DNA of 51,828 nt from Acidimicrobiales bacterium (lineage in GTDB: Bacteria; Actinomycetota; Acidimicrobiia; Acidimicrobiales; RAAP-2). Made by a program: the position numbers and the translations under genes. Under the pieces are notes generated by a model. It made no database searches. It was given only the letters and a program-made list of their open reading frames with translations, and was not told the origin of the DNA. The stretch spans positions 1 to 51,828 of the forward strand of contig JADGOH010000013.1 of NCBI GenBank assembly GCA_017883025.1. Reading direction: 5' to 3'. This document shows positions 16,633 through 22,043 of this stretch, one piece after another; the first letter of the stretch is position 1, and the number at the start of each line of letters is the position of its first letter.

Positions 16633-17136
16633 ATGGGCACCACCGGCGGATCGCCGCACGACGGGTCGGCCCCCGCTCCCCTGTCCGACGACGGGGCCAT
16701 GGCACTGGCGTTGGCCGAGGCAGCGGCGGCGGTCGAGCACGGTGACGTCCCGGTGGGGGCGGTGGCACTGGTCGACGGGCGGGTGGTGGCCTCGCGCCAC
16801 AACGAACGGGAACGGGCCGGTGACCCGACGGCCCACGCCGAGATCCTGGCCCTGGCCGACGCTGCCGCCGCGCTCGGCACCTGGCGCCTGGAGAACGTGA
16901 CGCTCGTCGTCACCCTCGAGCCGTGCCCCATGTGCGCCGGCGCACTGGTTGCATCGCGGCTCGGTCGGCTGGTGTTCGGCGCCGCGGACCCGAAGGCCGG
17001 TGCCTGCGGCTCGCTCTACAACTTGTGCGCCGACCCCCGGCTCAACCACGAGGTGGCGGTCACGGCCGGCGTGCGGGCCCACGAGGGCGCCGCCCTGCTG
17101 ACCGGGTTCTTCGGCGATCGGCGCACGAAGTCATGA
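16633..17136 (+). CDS. tadA: tRNA-specific adenosine deaminase
   Basis: 167 residues. It deaminates A34 to inosine in tRNA-Arg(ACG). The zinc site is complete: HAE (His68, Glu70 proton shuttle) and PCPMC (Cys98, Cys101) in VTLEPCPMCAGALVASRLGRLVFG. The C terminus with DPKAGACGSLYNLCADPRLNHEV is typical of TadA and distinguishes it from other cytidine-deaminase-fold enzymes. The N-terminal 20 residues form a small polar extension. Its TGA overlaps the TetR start by 4 nt (ATGA). Confidence 0.94.
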   Translation: MGTTGGSPHDGSAPAPLSDDGAMALALAEAAAAVEHGDVPVGAVALVDGRVVASRHNERERAGDPTAHAEILALADAAAALGTWRLENVTLVVTLEPCPMCAGALVASRLGRLVFGAADPKAGACGSLYNLCADPRLNHEVAVTAGVRAHEGAALLTGFFGDRRTKS

Positions 17137-17776: not shown

Positions 17777-17804
17777 GTGAGACACTAGGGTCGGACTGTC
17801 TCAC
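17777..17804 (+). promoter_or_regulatory. Operator-like inverted repeat GTGAGAC-N14-GTCTCAC, copy 1
   Basis: Perfect 7-bp arms are separated by 14 bp (an eighth base pair A/T continues inward). The spacer contains CACTAGGGT, whose TAGGGT (17787-17792) resembles the -10 of other genes here, so a bound repressor would cover the promoter of the MDR-sulfotransferase pair 68 nt downstream. An identical arm sequence with the same spacing occurs at 21820-21847. It could also act as a terminator for tadA-tetR, but identical spacing in a second, unrelated position favours protein binding. Confidence 0.7.
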
Positions 17805-17871
17805 GCACCGGCTCCGGGGGAGCCGGACGGCCTGATGTGCTGCGACGTGGGCGACGAGCGAAGGGGGACCG

Positions 17872-18930
17872 ATGGCCGAGATGCAGGCAGTCCAGGTGAC
17901 GAGGAACGGGCCGCCGGCCGAAGTGCTGGCGGTCCGGACGGTCGAGCGGCCGGTGCCGGGCCCCGGACAGGTACTCGTCGAGGTGGGTGCGGCCTCCCTC
18001 AACTTCAACGACATCGACCGCTGCCTCGGCAAGCTGGTGTCGGTCCCCACGCCACCGCCATACACGCTCGGGATGGACGTCTGCGGCGTCGTGGTCGAGG
18101 CCGGGGCCGGGGCCGGGCCGTGGGTGGGACGGCGGGTCGTGGCCATCACCACCACGGCCCTCGGAGGGATCGCCGAGTACGCCCTGGCCGACGCCGTAGC
18201 CGTGTTCGACGCGCCGGAGGGGCTCGACGACGCCGAAGCGGCCGCCTTCATCATGACGTTCCAGGCCTCGCACCTGGCACTGTTCCGTCGGGGCCGCCTG
18301 ACGGCCGGCGAGACCCTGGTGATCCACTCGGCGGCCAGCGGGCTCGGCTCGGCCGGGATCCAGCTGGGCAAGGCGGCCGGGGCCCGAGTCATCGCCGTGG
18401 CCGGAGGGCCCGACAAGGGTGCATTCTGCACCGCCCAGGGGGCCGACCTCGTGATCGACCACACCGCCGAGGACTTCGTCGAGGCCGTCCTGACTGCCAC
18501 CGGCGACGAGGGGGCCGACGTCGTCTACGACCTGACCGGCGGCGACTTCGTCGAGCGGTCGTGGCGGTGCACGGCCCGGGGCGGCCGGTACCTTGCCGTG
18601 GGGTTTGCCGACGACGACGAGAACGGCATGACCGGACGACCGCTCCGCATGGCGTGCATCGGCAACATCGACCTCGTCGGGGTCATGATCGCCTGGGCCG
18701 ACCACGTCGACCCCGGCATGCGTCGGTTCGGCTTCAACCCCTACGGGCGCGACGTGGCCGAGGAGATCCATGCCGACCTGCTGCGGTTGGTGGCCGAAGG
18801 GGCGATCCGGCCCGCCGTCGGCCGCCGGGTCACCATGGCCGGGGCCGGCGAAGCGCTGGAGGCCCACCGGGACCGGCGCTCCATCGGACGCACGGTGGTC
18901 GAGGTGGCCCCATTCGGATCCGGCACATGA
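17872..18930 (+). CDS. Zinc-independent MDR oxidoreductase (quinone oxidoreductase-like)
   Basis: 352 residues. N-terminal GroES-like fold (PGPGQVLVEVGAASLNFNDID, LGMDVCGVVVEAG) and NADP-binding Rossmann domain with VIHSAASGLGSAGIQLGKAAGARVIA. The cysteines and His of zinc alcohol dehydrogenases are missing, placing it with NADPH:quinone oxidoreductase/enoyl reductase-like MDR proteins. The substrate is unknown. The start has AGGGGG upstream. Its TGA overlaps the sulfotransferase ATG (ATGA), so the two are translationally coupled. Confidence 0.85.
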   Translation: MAEMQAVQVTRNGPPAEVLAVRTVERPVPGPGQVLVEVGAASLNFNDIDRCLGKLVSVPTPPPYTLGMDVCGVVVEAGAGAGPWVGRRVVAITTTALGGIAEYALADAVAVFDAPEGLDDAEAAAFIMTFQASHLALFRRGRLTAGETLVIHSAASGLGSAGIQLGKAAGARVIAVAGGPDKGAFCTAQGADLVIDHTAEDFVEAVLTATGDEGADVVYDLTGGDFVERSWRCTARGGRYLAVGFADDDENGMTGRPLRMACIGNIDLVGVMIAWADHVDPGMRRFGFNPYGRDVAEEIHADLLRLVAEGAIRPAVGRRVTMAGAGEALEAHRDRRSIGRTVVEVAPFGSGT

Positions 18931-20201
18931 GCCGCACCGATGCCGGGGCCGTCGACTACACGTGGCGCGATTCGGTGCTCACGGCGACCCCGCTACGTGC
19001 GCTCAACGCCGTCGGCGCCCGGCTGGCCCGCCACGGCTGGGATCGCCCGCCGCTCACGGTCGATGCCGTGGTGGCCGGTGCGGTCAAGTCGGCCGGGTCA
19101 GACGACCTGGGCAGCACCAGCTACCGCGAGCCGCTCGAGCTCTTCCTGGCGTCGTGCCGGGACGAGGCCGAGCTCACCACCTTCGGTCGCATCCTCATCA
19201 CCAAGATGCTCAGCTCGGCGCTGGCCAACCGTATCGAACTGCACCGGTGGTCGACCGACCACCCTGGAGCCGCCGCCGAGCGCATCACGAGCCCGTGGGT
19301 CATCGTCGGCCTGCCCCGCACCGGCACCAGCCTGCTGAGCAACCTGCTCGGGCTGGACCCCGAGAACCGGAACCTCCTGCAGTGGGAGGCCGCCCACCTG
19401 ATCCCGCCGGCCAGCCTCGAACAGGCCACGTCCGACCCCCGGATCGCCGCCACGGCCAAGGAGCTCGACGGCCTGTTCAAGCTCAACCCGCCGCTGCGCG
19501 TGATGCACCCGTTCGGCGCCACCCTCGCCCAGGAGTGCGTGAGCCTCTTCATGTACGACGTGCGCACACTGGCCCTCGAGACCCAGGCCCACGTGCCGGC
19601 CTACGCCAGATGGCTGGAGCAGGCCGACATGGCCCCCGCCTACGCACAGCACACCTCAGCCCTCCAGGCGCTGCAATCGGCCCAGCCGACCGGACGCTGG
19701 GTGCTCAAGACTCCCAATCACCTGTGGGACCTCGACGCGCTGCTGGCCGCCTACCCGGACGCACGGATCGTGTGGACCCACCGGGATCCGGGCCCGGTCG
19801 TCACCTCGCTGGCCAGCCTGGCCAACGCGGGTCAGCGGCCGCTGACCTCACGGACCGACCCCCGCCCGGCAGCCGAGGAGTGGAAGCGCAAGTGCGGGTT
19901 CGCCATCGGGTCGGCCACCGCGTTCGACGAGCGTTCGGGCCCGGGCTGGTGCCGGCACCTCCACTACGAGGATCTACTGGCCGACCCGGTCGGCGCCGTG
20001 CGCGGCCTGTACGCGGCATTCGACGAAGAGGTGGGTGATCTGCACGCACGCCGCATGCGGGCGTTCCTGGAGCAGCGGCCCCAGAACGCCTTCGGCCGCC
20101 ACGTGTACGACCCGGCCGACTTCGGCTGGACCTACGCCGGCCTGGCCGAGGAGTTCGCCGCATACACCGAGCGCTACGGCATCGCCACCGCCGCCCGGTA
20201 G
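18927..20201 (+). CDS. Sulfotransferase family protein
   Basis: 424 residues. The PAPS 5'-phosphosulfate loop is VGLPRTGTSLLSNLL (PRTGTS at 130-135), and the 3'-phosphate region is RIVWTHRDPGPVVTSLASL, with VLKTPNHLWDLDALL between them as in Sulfotransfer_3 proteins. It would transfer sulfate from PAPS to a lipid, carbohydrate or small-molecule hydroxyl; the acceptor is not predictable. Such long single-domain sulfotransferases are abundant in mycobacteria and Acidimicrobiia. Coupled to the MDR gene. Confidence 0.85.
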   Translation: MSRTDAGAVDYTWRDSVLTATPLRALNAVGARLARHGWDRPPLTVDAVVAGAVKSAGSDDLGSTSYREPLELFLASCRDEAELTTFGRILITKMLSSALANRIELHRWSTDHPGAAAERITSPWVIVGLPRTGTSLLSNLLGLDPENRNLLQWEAAHLIPPASLEQATSDPRIAATAKELDGLFKLNPPLRVMHPFGATLAQECVSLFMYDVRTLALETQAHVPAYARWLEQADMAPAYAQHTSALQALQSAQPTGRWVLKTPNHLWDLDALLAAYPDARIVWTHRDPGPVVTSLASLANAGQRPLTSRTDPRPAAEEWKRKCGFAIGSATAFDERSGPGWCRHLHYEDLLADPVGAVRGLYAAFDEEVGDLHARRMRAFLEQRPQNAFGRHVYDPADFGWTYAGLAEEFAAYTERYGIATAAR

Positions 20202-20203
20202 GG

Positions 20204-20233
20204 GGTGGGCCCGGGACGGGCCGGCCTCCCACC
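20204..20233. terminator. Bidirectional terminator between convergent genes
   Basis: Arms GGTGGG and CCCACC enclose a second complementary pair CCGG/CCGG, forming a long GC hairpin exactly between the convergent sulfotransferase and substrate-binding protein genes. No T-run. Confidence 0.5.
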
Positions 20234-20252
20234 GGTCACGGCGGCGTGCGGG

Positions 20253-21575
20253 TCAGTTCTTGGGCGGCGTCACGTACGAGTAGTCGCAGCGGAAGCCGTG
20301 GGTACTGCCGCTCACCGGCGGGTCGTCCAGGCGCTGGAAGTCCCCGCTGACCACCTTGCCGATGATGTAGCAGTTGCCCACCGACTTGGCCGCCGGGTTG
20401 TTCGGCCCGATCAGGTGGTTGCCGTCGAACGTCGTGATCTTGCCGAGCTGGGCGAGCAGCGACCCGCGGCTCGGGTTGGTGCCGGCGTTCTGGAGCGCCT
20501 GGGCGAACAGCTGGGCGGACAGCCAGCCGTAGAGGGTGAAGAGGTCGGGCGTGAACCCGGGCGAGGCCACGTTCACCCAGTGCAGGAACGTCGCCACGGC
20601 GGGGACCTGCGAGGCGTCCTGACCGAGGTAGAGCGTCGTGCTCTGATCGAGGAAGGAGCCGTTGACGGCGGCCGGGCCGCCCGAGTCCTGGATCAGCTTC
20701 GCCGTGTAGGTGGCGGCACCCAGGACGACCACCGGATGGAAGTTCTGCTGGGTGAGGTTCTTGAGGAGGGCCGAGGCGTACGACTCCGCCATGGAGTCGA
20801 CGAAGAGGATCTTGACGCCGGCGTTCTTCATCGCGATGACGTTGGAGGTGAAGTCGGTCTGGGCCACGCCGTAGTTCGCCGTATAGGTGATGTGATAGCC
20901 GACCTTCTCCATGACGTACTTCTCGCCGGCCCAGTCGGTCTGCGCCGACGGGAGCGAGGCGATCATTGCGCCCACGGCGGTCACGTCGGAGGGGAACTTC
21001 TTCTTGAAGTACTGGAGCCCGCCCTCCTGCCAGCCGCCGTTGAGCGGCACCGGGCTGTACACGTTGGGCAACGAGCCCGTCGTGGTGTCGAGCACGTTGG
21101 AGACGTCGGGCATCCCCGGGTTGGCCGCCAGGACGGCACCCCCGTAGCTGTCCTCGAGGGAGAAGTTCCCGACGAGGGCGAAGTCGTTGGTGAGCGCGGC
21201 TTGTGTGGCCTGCTTGTTGGTGGCGCCGGTGAACCCGTCGTCCGCTCCGTCGACCTTGAGCTTGCGGCCGTTCACACCACCGGTCGAGTTGACGTAGTCG
21301 GCGTAGGCCTGGGTCCCGACCTGGGCCCCCTTGAACAGACCGCCGAGCGCCAGCGTCGACACGTTACCGACGGTGACCGAGTTCGACGTGATCCCGGTGT
21401 GGTCGCCGTAGGCGCTGGCCGGGATCTTGGACGAACCCGACGTGGTGTTGCTGCCCCCCGCCGCGGTCGTCGTGGTCGACGCGGAGTTGGTCGAGCTGCA
21501 GGCGGCGGCCGTCGTGGCCAGCAGGAGTACCGCGCCCAGCGCTGCCAGACGGGTCTTCCGGGACGTTCTAGTCAT
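20253..21575 (-). CDS. ABC transporter substrate-binding lipoprotein (branched-chain amino acid type)
   Basis: 440 residues. The N terminus MTRTSRKTRLAALGAVLLLATTAAACSS is a lipoprotein signal with lipobox AAAC, then a Ser/Thr/Gly linker. The mature part has the two-lobed type I periplasmic fold (Peripla_BP_6): ITSNSVTVGNVSTLALGGLF, GVNGRKLKV, FALVGNFSLEDSYGG and VTAVGAMIASLPSAQ. Relatives bind branched-chain or aromatic amino acids and aromatic acids; the ligand is unknown. GGGGGAAGA directly precedes the ATG. No permease or ATPase genes adjoin, so it is an orphan component. A shared palindrome lies 245 nt upstream. Confidence 0.85.
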   Translation of the reverse strand: MTRTSRKTRLAALGAVLLLATTAAACSSTNSASTTTTAAGGSNTTSGSSKIPASAYGDHTGITSNSVTVGNVSTLALGGLFKGAQVGTQAYADYVNSTGGVNGRKLKVDGADDGFTGATNKQATQAALTNDFALVGNFSLEDSYGGAVLAANPGMPDVSNVLDTTTGSLPNVYSPVPLNGGWQEGGLQYFKKKFPSDVTAVGAMIASLPSAQTDWAGEKYVMEKVGYHITYTANYGVAQTDFTSNVIAMKNAGVKILFVDSMAESYASALLKNLTQQNFHPVVVLGAATYTAKLIQDSGGPAAVNGSFLDQSTTLYLGQDASQVPAVATFLHWVNVASPGFTPDLFTLYGWLSAQLFAQALQNAGTNPSRGSLLAQLGKITTFDGNHLIGPNNPAAKSVGNCYIIGKVVSGDFQRLDDPPVSGSTHGFRCDYSYVTPPKN

Positions 21576-21955
21576 TCTTCCCCCAAGCTGTCGCGCCCTC
21601 GGCTGGTGTATCAATCCCCCATCAGTCCGGGCGTTCTTTCCGAATGCAGCACCATACTGCGCGGAGGCGACCGGGTGTGGAGCATCCTCCGACCCCCATC
21701 CGCGCCAGTGGCTGTGGGCTGTCTGTACTGGGAGATCACGACCCGTTACCGGGCGCACGGCGTCCATCGGCCCCGACGACGTCCGACTTCCGACGACACG
21801 TCCCTGCCCTCTTCGACCGGTGAGACTTACCGATTTCGGTGTCTCACGGCGCCGGTGCACGGCCATGCCGGACGGGCGGCGTGGAGCGTGGACCCGAGCG
21901 GGGCCGCCGGCGACCCCGTCCAGGACCCTCGTCCGCCTCCGTTACACTCGCCGGC
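21576..21955. other. 380-nt intergenic region upstream of the substrate-binding protein and tRNA-Ser(CGA)
   Basis: No gene was recognised. It contains the GTGAGAC-N14-GTCTCAC palindrome at 21820-21847, a candidate -10 TGATAC (minus strand, about 21615) for the lipoprotein, and TACACT at 21943-21948 (plus), a good -10 eight bases before the tRNA. Confidence 0.4.
21820..21847 (-). promoter_or_regulatory. Operator-like inverted repeat GTGAGAC-N14-GTCTCAC, copy 2
   Basis: The arms and the 14-bp spacing are identical to the site at 17777-17804; the spacer here is itself symmetric (ACCGA-tt-TCGGT), so the whole element could fold into a 12-bp hairpin with a 2-nt bulge. It lies between the divergent lipoprotein gene (245 nt away) and tRNA-Ser (108 nt away). 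A regulator shared with the MDR-sulfotransferase unit is the simplest reading. Confidence 0.65.
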
Positions 21956-22043
21956 GGAAGGGTGGCAGAGCGGACTAATGCGCACGCCTCGAAAGCGTGT
22001 GAGGTGAAAGCCTCCGGGGGTTCGAATCCCCCCCCTTCCGCCA
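21956..22043 (+). tRNA. tRNA-Ser (anticodon CGA)
   Basis: 88 nt, class II. Acceptor GGAAGGG/CCCTTCC with discriminator G and encoded CCA. The anticodon stem CACGC/GCGTG encloses CTCGAAA, giving CGA (reads UCG). The extended variable arm and TTCGAAT T-loop are present. TACACT eight bases upstream is a good -10. Confidence 0.97.

Follow-up and report, generated by a model that had tools for sequence, protein, structure and literature searches.

Two copies of one palindrome and a neighbouring TetR-family gene: a proposed small regulon in an Acidimicrobiales genome

Introduction

The locus described here consists of two palindromes with identical arms and a TetR-family gene (TetR 17133) beside one of them, in a 51,828-nucleotide stretch of DNA from an Acidimicrobiales bacterium (GenBank assembly GCA_017883025.1, contig JADGOH010000013.1), which we call the window. 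The closest described systems are from Mycobacterium tuberculosis and Staphylococcus aureus. CasR (Rv1776c) of M. tuberculosis is a TetR-family autorepressor whose DNase I footprint contains the half-site GTGTCTCAC (PMC9953421). A survey of mycobacterial TetR proteins gives a predicted Rv1776c motif as a logo, and the half-site may already be in print there (PMC4482099). EthR2/Rv0078 of M. tuberculosis sits as two dimers, staggered by 7 bp, on one long operator overlapping start sites, with Arg48 reading a guanine (PMC6016246), and QacR of S. aureus binds a 28-bp palindrome as a tetramer (PMC4482099).

We searched the literature for comparable operators, with most subscription journals lying outside the search. 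CasR was the sole TetR regulator found with GTCTCAC or, judged by titles and abstract openings, with TGTCTCAC in a palindrome or inverted repeat, and no TetR-family operator with TGAGACA was found. The combination of Acidimicrobi and TetR-family operator returned only a review on rubber degradation, and no published description of the regulon proposed here came to light.

From comparison of related genomes we propose that both palindromes are operators of TetR 17133, site 1 repressing an oxidoreductase-sulfotransferase gene pair and site 2 co-regulating a gene for a substrate-binding lipoprotein (SBP). We put the probability of this reading at about 0.85.

Results

Both sites have perfect GTGAGAC and GTCTCAC arms around 14-bp spacers that differ from each other, and the coordinates, arms and spacing given in an earlier note on this DNA were all reproduced (Table 1). 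The genome-wide pattern search that the note had suggested returned two perfect copies of GTGAGAC-N14-GTCTCAC in the whole assembly (G000; 2,503,401 bases, 71.65% complete), both inside the window, and none of the reversed control pattern. Given the base composition of the window, about 0.0057 perfect sites would be expected per genome, and finding at least two in the window has a probability of about 7e-9. Allowing up to 3 mismatches still yielded just the 2 matches in the window; shuffles averaged 4.87 such loose matches, which leaves the perfect matches as the meaningful ones. Across the assembly, with up to 2 mismatches allowed, the pattern matched 5 times and the control 4 times; the 3 additional matches thus look like noise, and we claim no further regulon member.

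Recurrence of arms and spacing is in itself not rare, since the 3 groups of recurring inverted repeats in the window (7-bp arms, spacer 0-30) compare with a mean of 0.84 and a maximum of 4 in 100 dinucleotide shuffles. The GTGAGAC group alone has at least 3 A/T per arm, a cut-off picked after inspection of the data, and groups of that kind arose in 0 of the 100 shuffles.

Orthologs of TetR 17133 (E<=1e-25, with up to 18 candidates scored per genome) were present in 3 of 172 genomes of the family, namely G000 itself and two others of its genus, G001 and G013, at 71-72% identity. Across 397 genomes of the order (E<=1e-28, up to 7 candidates scored per genome) the window's own copy alone was found, and none beyond the genus. 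Each of the three TetR-bearing genomes has exactly 2 perfect TGAGAC-N14-GTCTCA sites genome-wide, in orthologous places: one directly follows the TetR gene, the other lies in the SBP upstream region. Site 1 reads GTGAGACACTAGGGT, CTGAGACACTATGGT and GTGAGACACTAAGCT across the three genomes, and site 2 retains TGAGACTT and GTCTCA with differing spacers. The regulator and both sites thus occur together in 3 of 3 TetR-bearing genomes, which lends comparative support to the small regulon under TetR 17133 that the note had suspected. In G013 the oxidoreductase is not at the locus and site 1 directly precedes the sulfotransferase ortholog. The G013 TetR reading frame terminates within site 1, and the sulfotransferase and SBP matches of this genome (L196:4222-6271 and L196:9938-11228) are each split over two frames, by a frameshift or an assembly error.

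Loci without the regulator provided a natural control. At the matching locus, G006, G011 and G012 carry genes for the deaminase, the oxidoreductase and the SBP, without the TetR and without a sulfotransferase match there. At their oxidoreductase gene, site 1 was absent at up to 3 mismatches with spacers of 12-17. Site 2 was absent from G011 and G012, in which the SBP upstream region is fully readable; that of G006 ends at 90 bp. When SBP upstream regions were compared (30 of 47 homolog matches from 14 genomes of the genus, spacers 14 and 15, two upstreams offering only 90 bp, in G006, and 5 bp), an N14 site with up to 2 mismatches was present in 3 of 3 on TetR-bearing contigs versus 0 of 25 others with the full 700 bp. 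A single 3-mismatch N15 match, at L056, was seen among the others. Because the genes shared by these loci are nearer in G000 to G011, G012 and G006 than to G001, loss of the regulator together with its sites in those three genomes would be the simpler history. The stretch from the SBP promoter to tRNA-Ser(CGA) (window 21660-21955) is longer in G000 than in G011 and G012 (L198, L199), and the extra block bears site 2.

The two sites lie differently with respect to promoters. The note had placed site 1 over a TAGGGT -10-like hexamer, and five genomes do have a TAnnnT at the equivalent position: TAGGGT in G000, TATGGT in G001, TAAGCT in G013, and TAGGCT in G011 and G012, where the arms are missing. 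TAGGGT looks like a conserved -10. A proposed operator overlying a probable core promoter is what we see at site 1, with the TAnnnT inside, and not at site 2, whose distance upstream from the SBP -10 is 177, 178 and 158 bp in the three genomes (177 bp from its centre in G000). The near two-turn gap between these distances could reflect helical phasing; three values prove nothing. At 28 bp, with arm centres 21 bp from each other, the proposed operator falls within the 21-28 bp length range of QacR- and EthR2-type operators and is longer than the 15-bp tetO. The SBP reading frame continues upstream without a stop as far as an ATG at 21866 (window 20253-21866, minus strand) and so spans site 2; this extension looks fortuitous, because the corresponding open frame in G001 is shorter (458 aa).

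The protein matches agree with the gene context that the note had read from the letters: TetR_N, zinc-type dehydrogenase, Sulfotransfer_3 and Peripla_BP_6 (Table 1). TetR 17133 matched PF00440, the TetR_N helix-turn-helix (HTH), over residues 20-65 with 43.5 bits against a cut-off of 24, and its recognition helix reads SRATLYR. Its genome holds 30 TetR_N matches, 29 of them above the cut-off. An AlphaFold model of the protein is all-alpha, with ten helices and a mean pLDDT of 82.3. The 50 matches listed when this model was compared with solved structures are regulators such as FadR, EthR2, AlkX, DarR and QacR, with moderate TM values of about 0.4-0.67; the structures of QacR, EthR2, FadR and AlkX reach about 0.6 to 0.67. 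Among NCBIfam models, none matched the TetR or the oxidoreductase above its cut-off (TIGR02824 was best for the oxidoreductase, under its cut-off), and none matched the sulfotransferase or the SBP at all.

Table 1. Genes, proposed operators and promoter-like elements of the locus (window coordinates).
Feature	Position	Strand	Remarks
Deaminase	16633-17136		Stop overlaps TetR start codon (ATGA)
TetR-family regulator, 210 aa	17133..17765	+	TetR_N 2.7e-11; proposed binder of both sites
Site 1, GTGAGAC-N14-GTCTCAC operator (proposed)	17777..17804		Starts 12 bp past last base of TetR stop codon
-10-like hexamer TAGGGT within site 1	17786..17791	+	Proposed promoter of oxidoreductase-sulfotransferase genes
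Zinc-type medium-chain dehydrogenase/reductase, PIG3-like quinone oxidoreductase	17872..18930	+	ADH_zinc_N 1.6e-22; proposed target
Sulfotransferase	18927..20201	+	Sulfotransfer_3 1.4e-37; start overlaps oxidoreductase stop; proposed target
Substrate-binding lipoprotein (SBP)	20253..21575	-	Peripla_BP_6, PF13458 1.1e-31; lipoprotein signal by eye; proposed target
SBP -10-like hexamer TATGGT	21651..21656	-	Conserved in alignment of 7 SBP upstream regions
Site 2, GTGAGAC-N14-GTCTCAC operator (proposed)	21820..21847		About 245 bp upstream of SBP start codon
tRNA-Ser(CGA)	21956-22043		Beyond site 2

We also looked for the same arms beyond this locus. A preliminary scan of 41 relatives with spacers of 4-24 gave 8 sites in 7 genomes versus 4 control matches; two candidates, L003 and L008 (spacers 18 and 11), lay at unrelated genes and were left out of the subsequent counts, made with spacers of 13-16. 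Across the order, GTGAGAC-N13..16-GTCTCAC occurred at 32 sites in 30 of the 397 genomes versus 6 control matches. Among the 29 sites with a locus outside G000 (one further order-level site had no locus), 12 stood where a TetR gene begins, beside a ferritin-like gene, some of these loci being close relatives of each other; 1 was at another ferritin-like gene and 3 were upstream of P450 genes. The ferritin-like gene gave a weak AurF match, below the cut-off. The arrangement recurs as a TetR-(TetR)-ferritin-like operon with the operator at the TetR start (L005, L006, L020, L024 and eight more order loci), and some of these loci have a TTGAC -35-like hexamer directly against the left arm. Within the family, 12 of 172 genomes had 13 sites between them, the control giving 3 matches; 9 of the 10 sites outside the genus had 15-bp spacing and a P450 match that began 213-229 bp downstream (L025-L027, L038, L039, L041-L044; site at locus 1501-1529). 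These P450-upstream palindromes have a distal position like that of site 2.

A contig scan for GTGAGACA-N12/13-TGTCTCAC found at least 117 stretches with at least 122 sites in them. Among the matches listed, 32 of the 122 sites lay no more than 400 bp from a TetR match and 90 had no such neighbour; the 32 comprised 19 from Acidimicrobi-/Ilumatobacteraceae/Microthrix/other actinobacteria, 5 from Lentzea, 2 from Mycobacterium and 6 from other bacteria. The helix pattern [SGA]RA[TS]xYR was found in 54 of 59 HTH rows lying up to 700 bp from a site versus 5 of 30 G000 TetR rows (3 distinct proteins, including the window TetR), counts that lean towards the claim of a shared helix, as the hidden Markov model was built from site-adjacent TetRs and the rows, duplicate genomes included, are not independent. 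In Arthrobacter (L103, L114, L145, L092, L110, L175) and Microbacterium (L082, L106, L150) the pattern stands inside longer palindromes, in repeated copies, some near contig ends; these copies are probably mobile-element or hairpin features without relation to a TetR.

The arm sequence is common to other TetR systems, and the motif alone does not name its regulator. The regulon idea of the earlier note, whose link to the TetR is supported, is refined in two respects: site 2 does not lie on the SBP -10, and the regulator is not identified by the motif by itself.

Discussion

With site 1 missing at the three syntenic loci that lack the regulator and two perfect sites in each of the three genomes that have it, we favour TetR 17133 as the protein that would bind both palindromes. 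With no site ahead of its gene, the regulator would be expected on the upstream transcript and is probably co-expressed with the gene before it. Site 1 may be bound by one dimer or, more likely, by two, since arms 21 bp apart, two helical turns, fit two dimers as published for QacR and EthR2/Rv0078. As site 1 spans the -10-like hexamer and the expected start site, bound TetR should cover TAGGGT and block RNA polymerase from initiating at the oxidoreductase-sulfotransferase promoter until a putative ligand releases it. At site 2, which lies about 160-180 bp before the SBP -10, the same protein would co-regulate the SBP gene, either through looping or with the site serving as a distal operator.

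Several observations weigh against this proposal. No conserved core promoter falls within site 2. The region ahead of the TetR gene gave no site at up to 3 mismatches (window, L195, L196), which leaves autorepression unsupported; an operator upstream of the regulator's own gene is common in TetR regulons and is not required. At one mismatch, TGAGAC-N14-GTCTCA occurred 3 times in G001, 2 times in G013 and 0 times in G000, with 1 control match per genome, and four of the sites in G001 and G013 have no link to the locus. Save for the loci read by synteny, the absence of the TetR elsewhere is an absence among the up to 18 (family) or 7 (order) candidates scored per genome. Of the 29 order sites, 13 have none of the tested marker genes nearby. 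Finally, G000 itself encodes a tandem TetR pair with SRATVYR helices beside a ferritin-like gene (contig 133; L224, L225) that has no GTGAGAC site.

The alternative that survives best keeps the protein and divides its roles: site 1 would be a repressor operator, and site 2 an activator site, the operator of a hypothetical short transcript, or a roadblock that keeps read-through out of the SBP gene. The distances from site 2 to the SBP -10, with no conserved core promoter inside the site, suit such a division, as does the codirectional methyltransferase gene that ends just upstream of site 2 in G001 and G013, and the distal operators at P450 matches in related genera show a comparable placement. 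However, G001 has an additional imperfect site 75 bp nearer the SBP gene, which is equally suited to looping or spreading repression. We regard a division of roles as a genuine possibility, held at clearly less than even odds.

It is also conceivable that another TetR-family protein encoded elsewhere binds both sites and that its neighbour 17133 is incidental. The size of the TetR complement in G000 and the sharing of the half-site among many different TetRs of the order leave room for this, as do the SRATVYR helices of the contig 133 pair. But that pair adjoins its own ferritin-like gene, where the matching place holds a TTGACG-flanked CTGAAACA-N13-TGTTCCAG, a looser relative chosen by eye and a diverged palindrome of equal spacing; the two sites co-occur with the 17133 ortholog, and the order-level search, with up to 7 candidates scored per genome, turned up no copy of 17133 beyond the window's own. 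We consider a regulator from elsewhere unlikely.

Mobile-element or terminator hairpins are a far less probable explanation of the palindromes. In other phyla, with flanks read by eye, hairpins followed by T runs do contain the pattern, and it also recurs between genes and close to contig ends, but neither site here is followed by a T run, the spacers differ, a -10-like hexamer lies within site 1, and both positions are conserved and tied to a TetR. Chance repetition, which the short arms and the G/C-rich recurring repeats of the shuffles might seem to favour, can practically be dismissed, as the note had judged, given the site expectation, the empty shuffles and above all the conservation in two further species, which refutes it.

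Returning to TetR 17133 as the binder of both sites, the regulon looks newly seen, and the kind of small gene-control circuit looks ordinary. Its value is that a palindrome present in two copies leads to a concrete proposed assignment of regulator, operator and targets with a natural control, in that loci without the regulator also lack site 1. A wider idea, which we put forward tentatively and at somewhat under even odds, is that GTGAGACA-N12/13-TGTCTCAC may serve a wide range of TetRs with [S/G]RATxYR helices as a common operator, order-wide and sporadically in other bacteria. It would be used in two ways: inside a promoter, as at TetR-ferritin-like loci and site 1, or as a distal operator about 160-230 bp upstream of genes for redox or uptake functions, as at P450 genes and site 2. 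If this is true, the targets of many uncharacterised TetRs would be readable directly from sequence, and the half-site family could allow target prediction for many unstudied actinobacterial TetR proteins.

Among known systems, CasR resembles this locus in the half-site GTGTCTCAC of its footprint, and the comparison was made by half-site alone. CasR differs in its operator, which lies at the CasR and csm6 promoters and is described as an imperfect palindrome of 20 bp whose halves are 4 bp apart (PMC9953421). A 23-base piece of the footprint DNA matched 0 of 297 Mycobacterium genomes at up to 2 mismatches; a search with CasR's own DNA in 3 Mycobacterium genomes at up to 3 mismatches also gave no match, and no M. 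tuberculosis locus was reached in this way. EthR2 is among the best structural matches to the AlphaFold model (5icj_B, TMq 0.65; DNA complex 6c31, TMq 0.64 and 0.60), and the window TetR also has an Arg at 48, within SRATLYR, which is matched to Arg48 of EthR2 by number only. The two proteins share about 20% identity, and the EthR2 operator is 21 bp long and of another sequence (PMC6016246).

The operators of the 12 TetR-ferritin-like and 9 P450 loci of the order have GTGAGAC/GTCTCAC arms identical to those here. They differ in their 15-bp spacing (in all but L024), in their targets, and, at the 12 TetR-ferritin-like loci, in the position of the site at the TetR gene start, unlike the present locus; six aligned TetRs from order loci are 23-29% identical to the window TetR. 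QacR differs from the window TetR in sequence, at 15% identity, and its half-site and target are not those seen here. It nevertheless has the same operator length of 28 bp, and its structure 3br0_A, with a TMq of 0.67, is the highest of the 50 matches listed.

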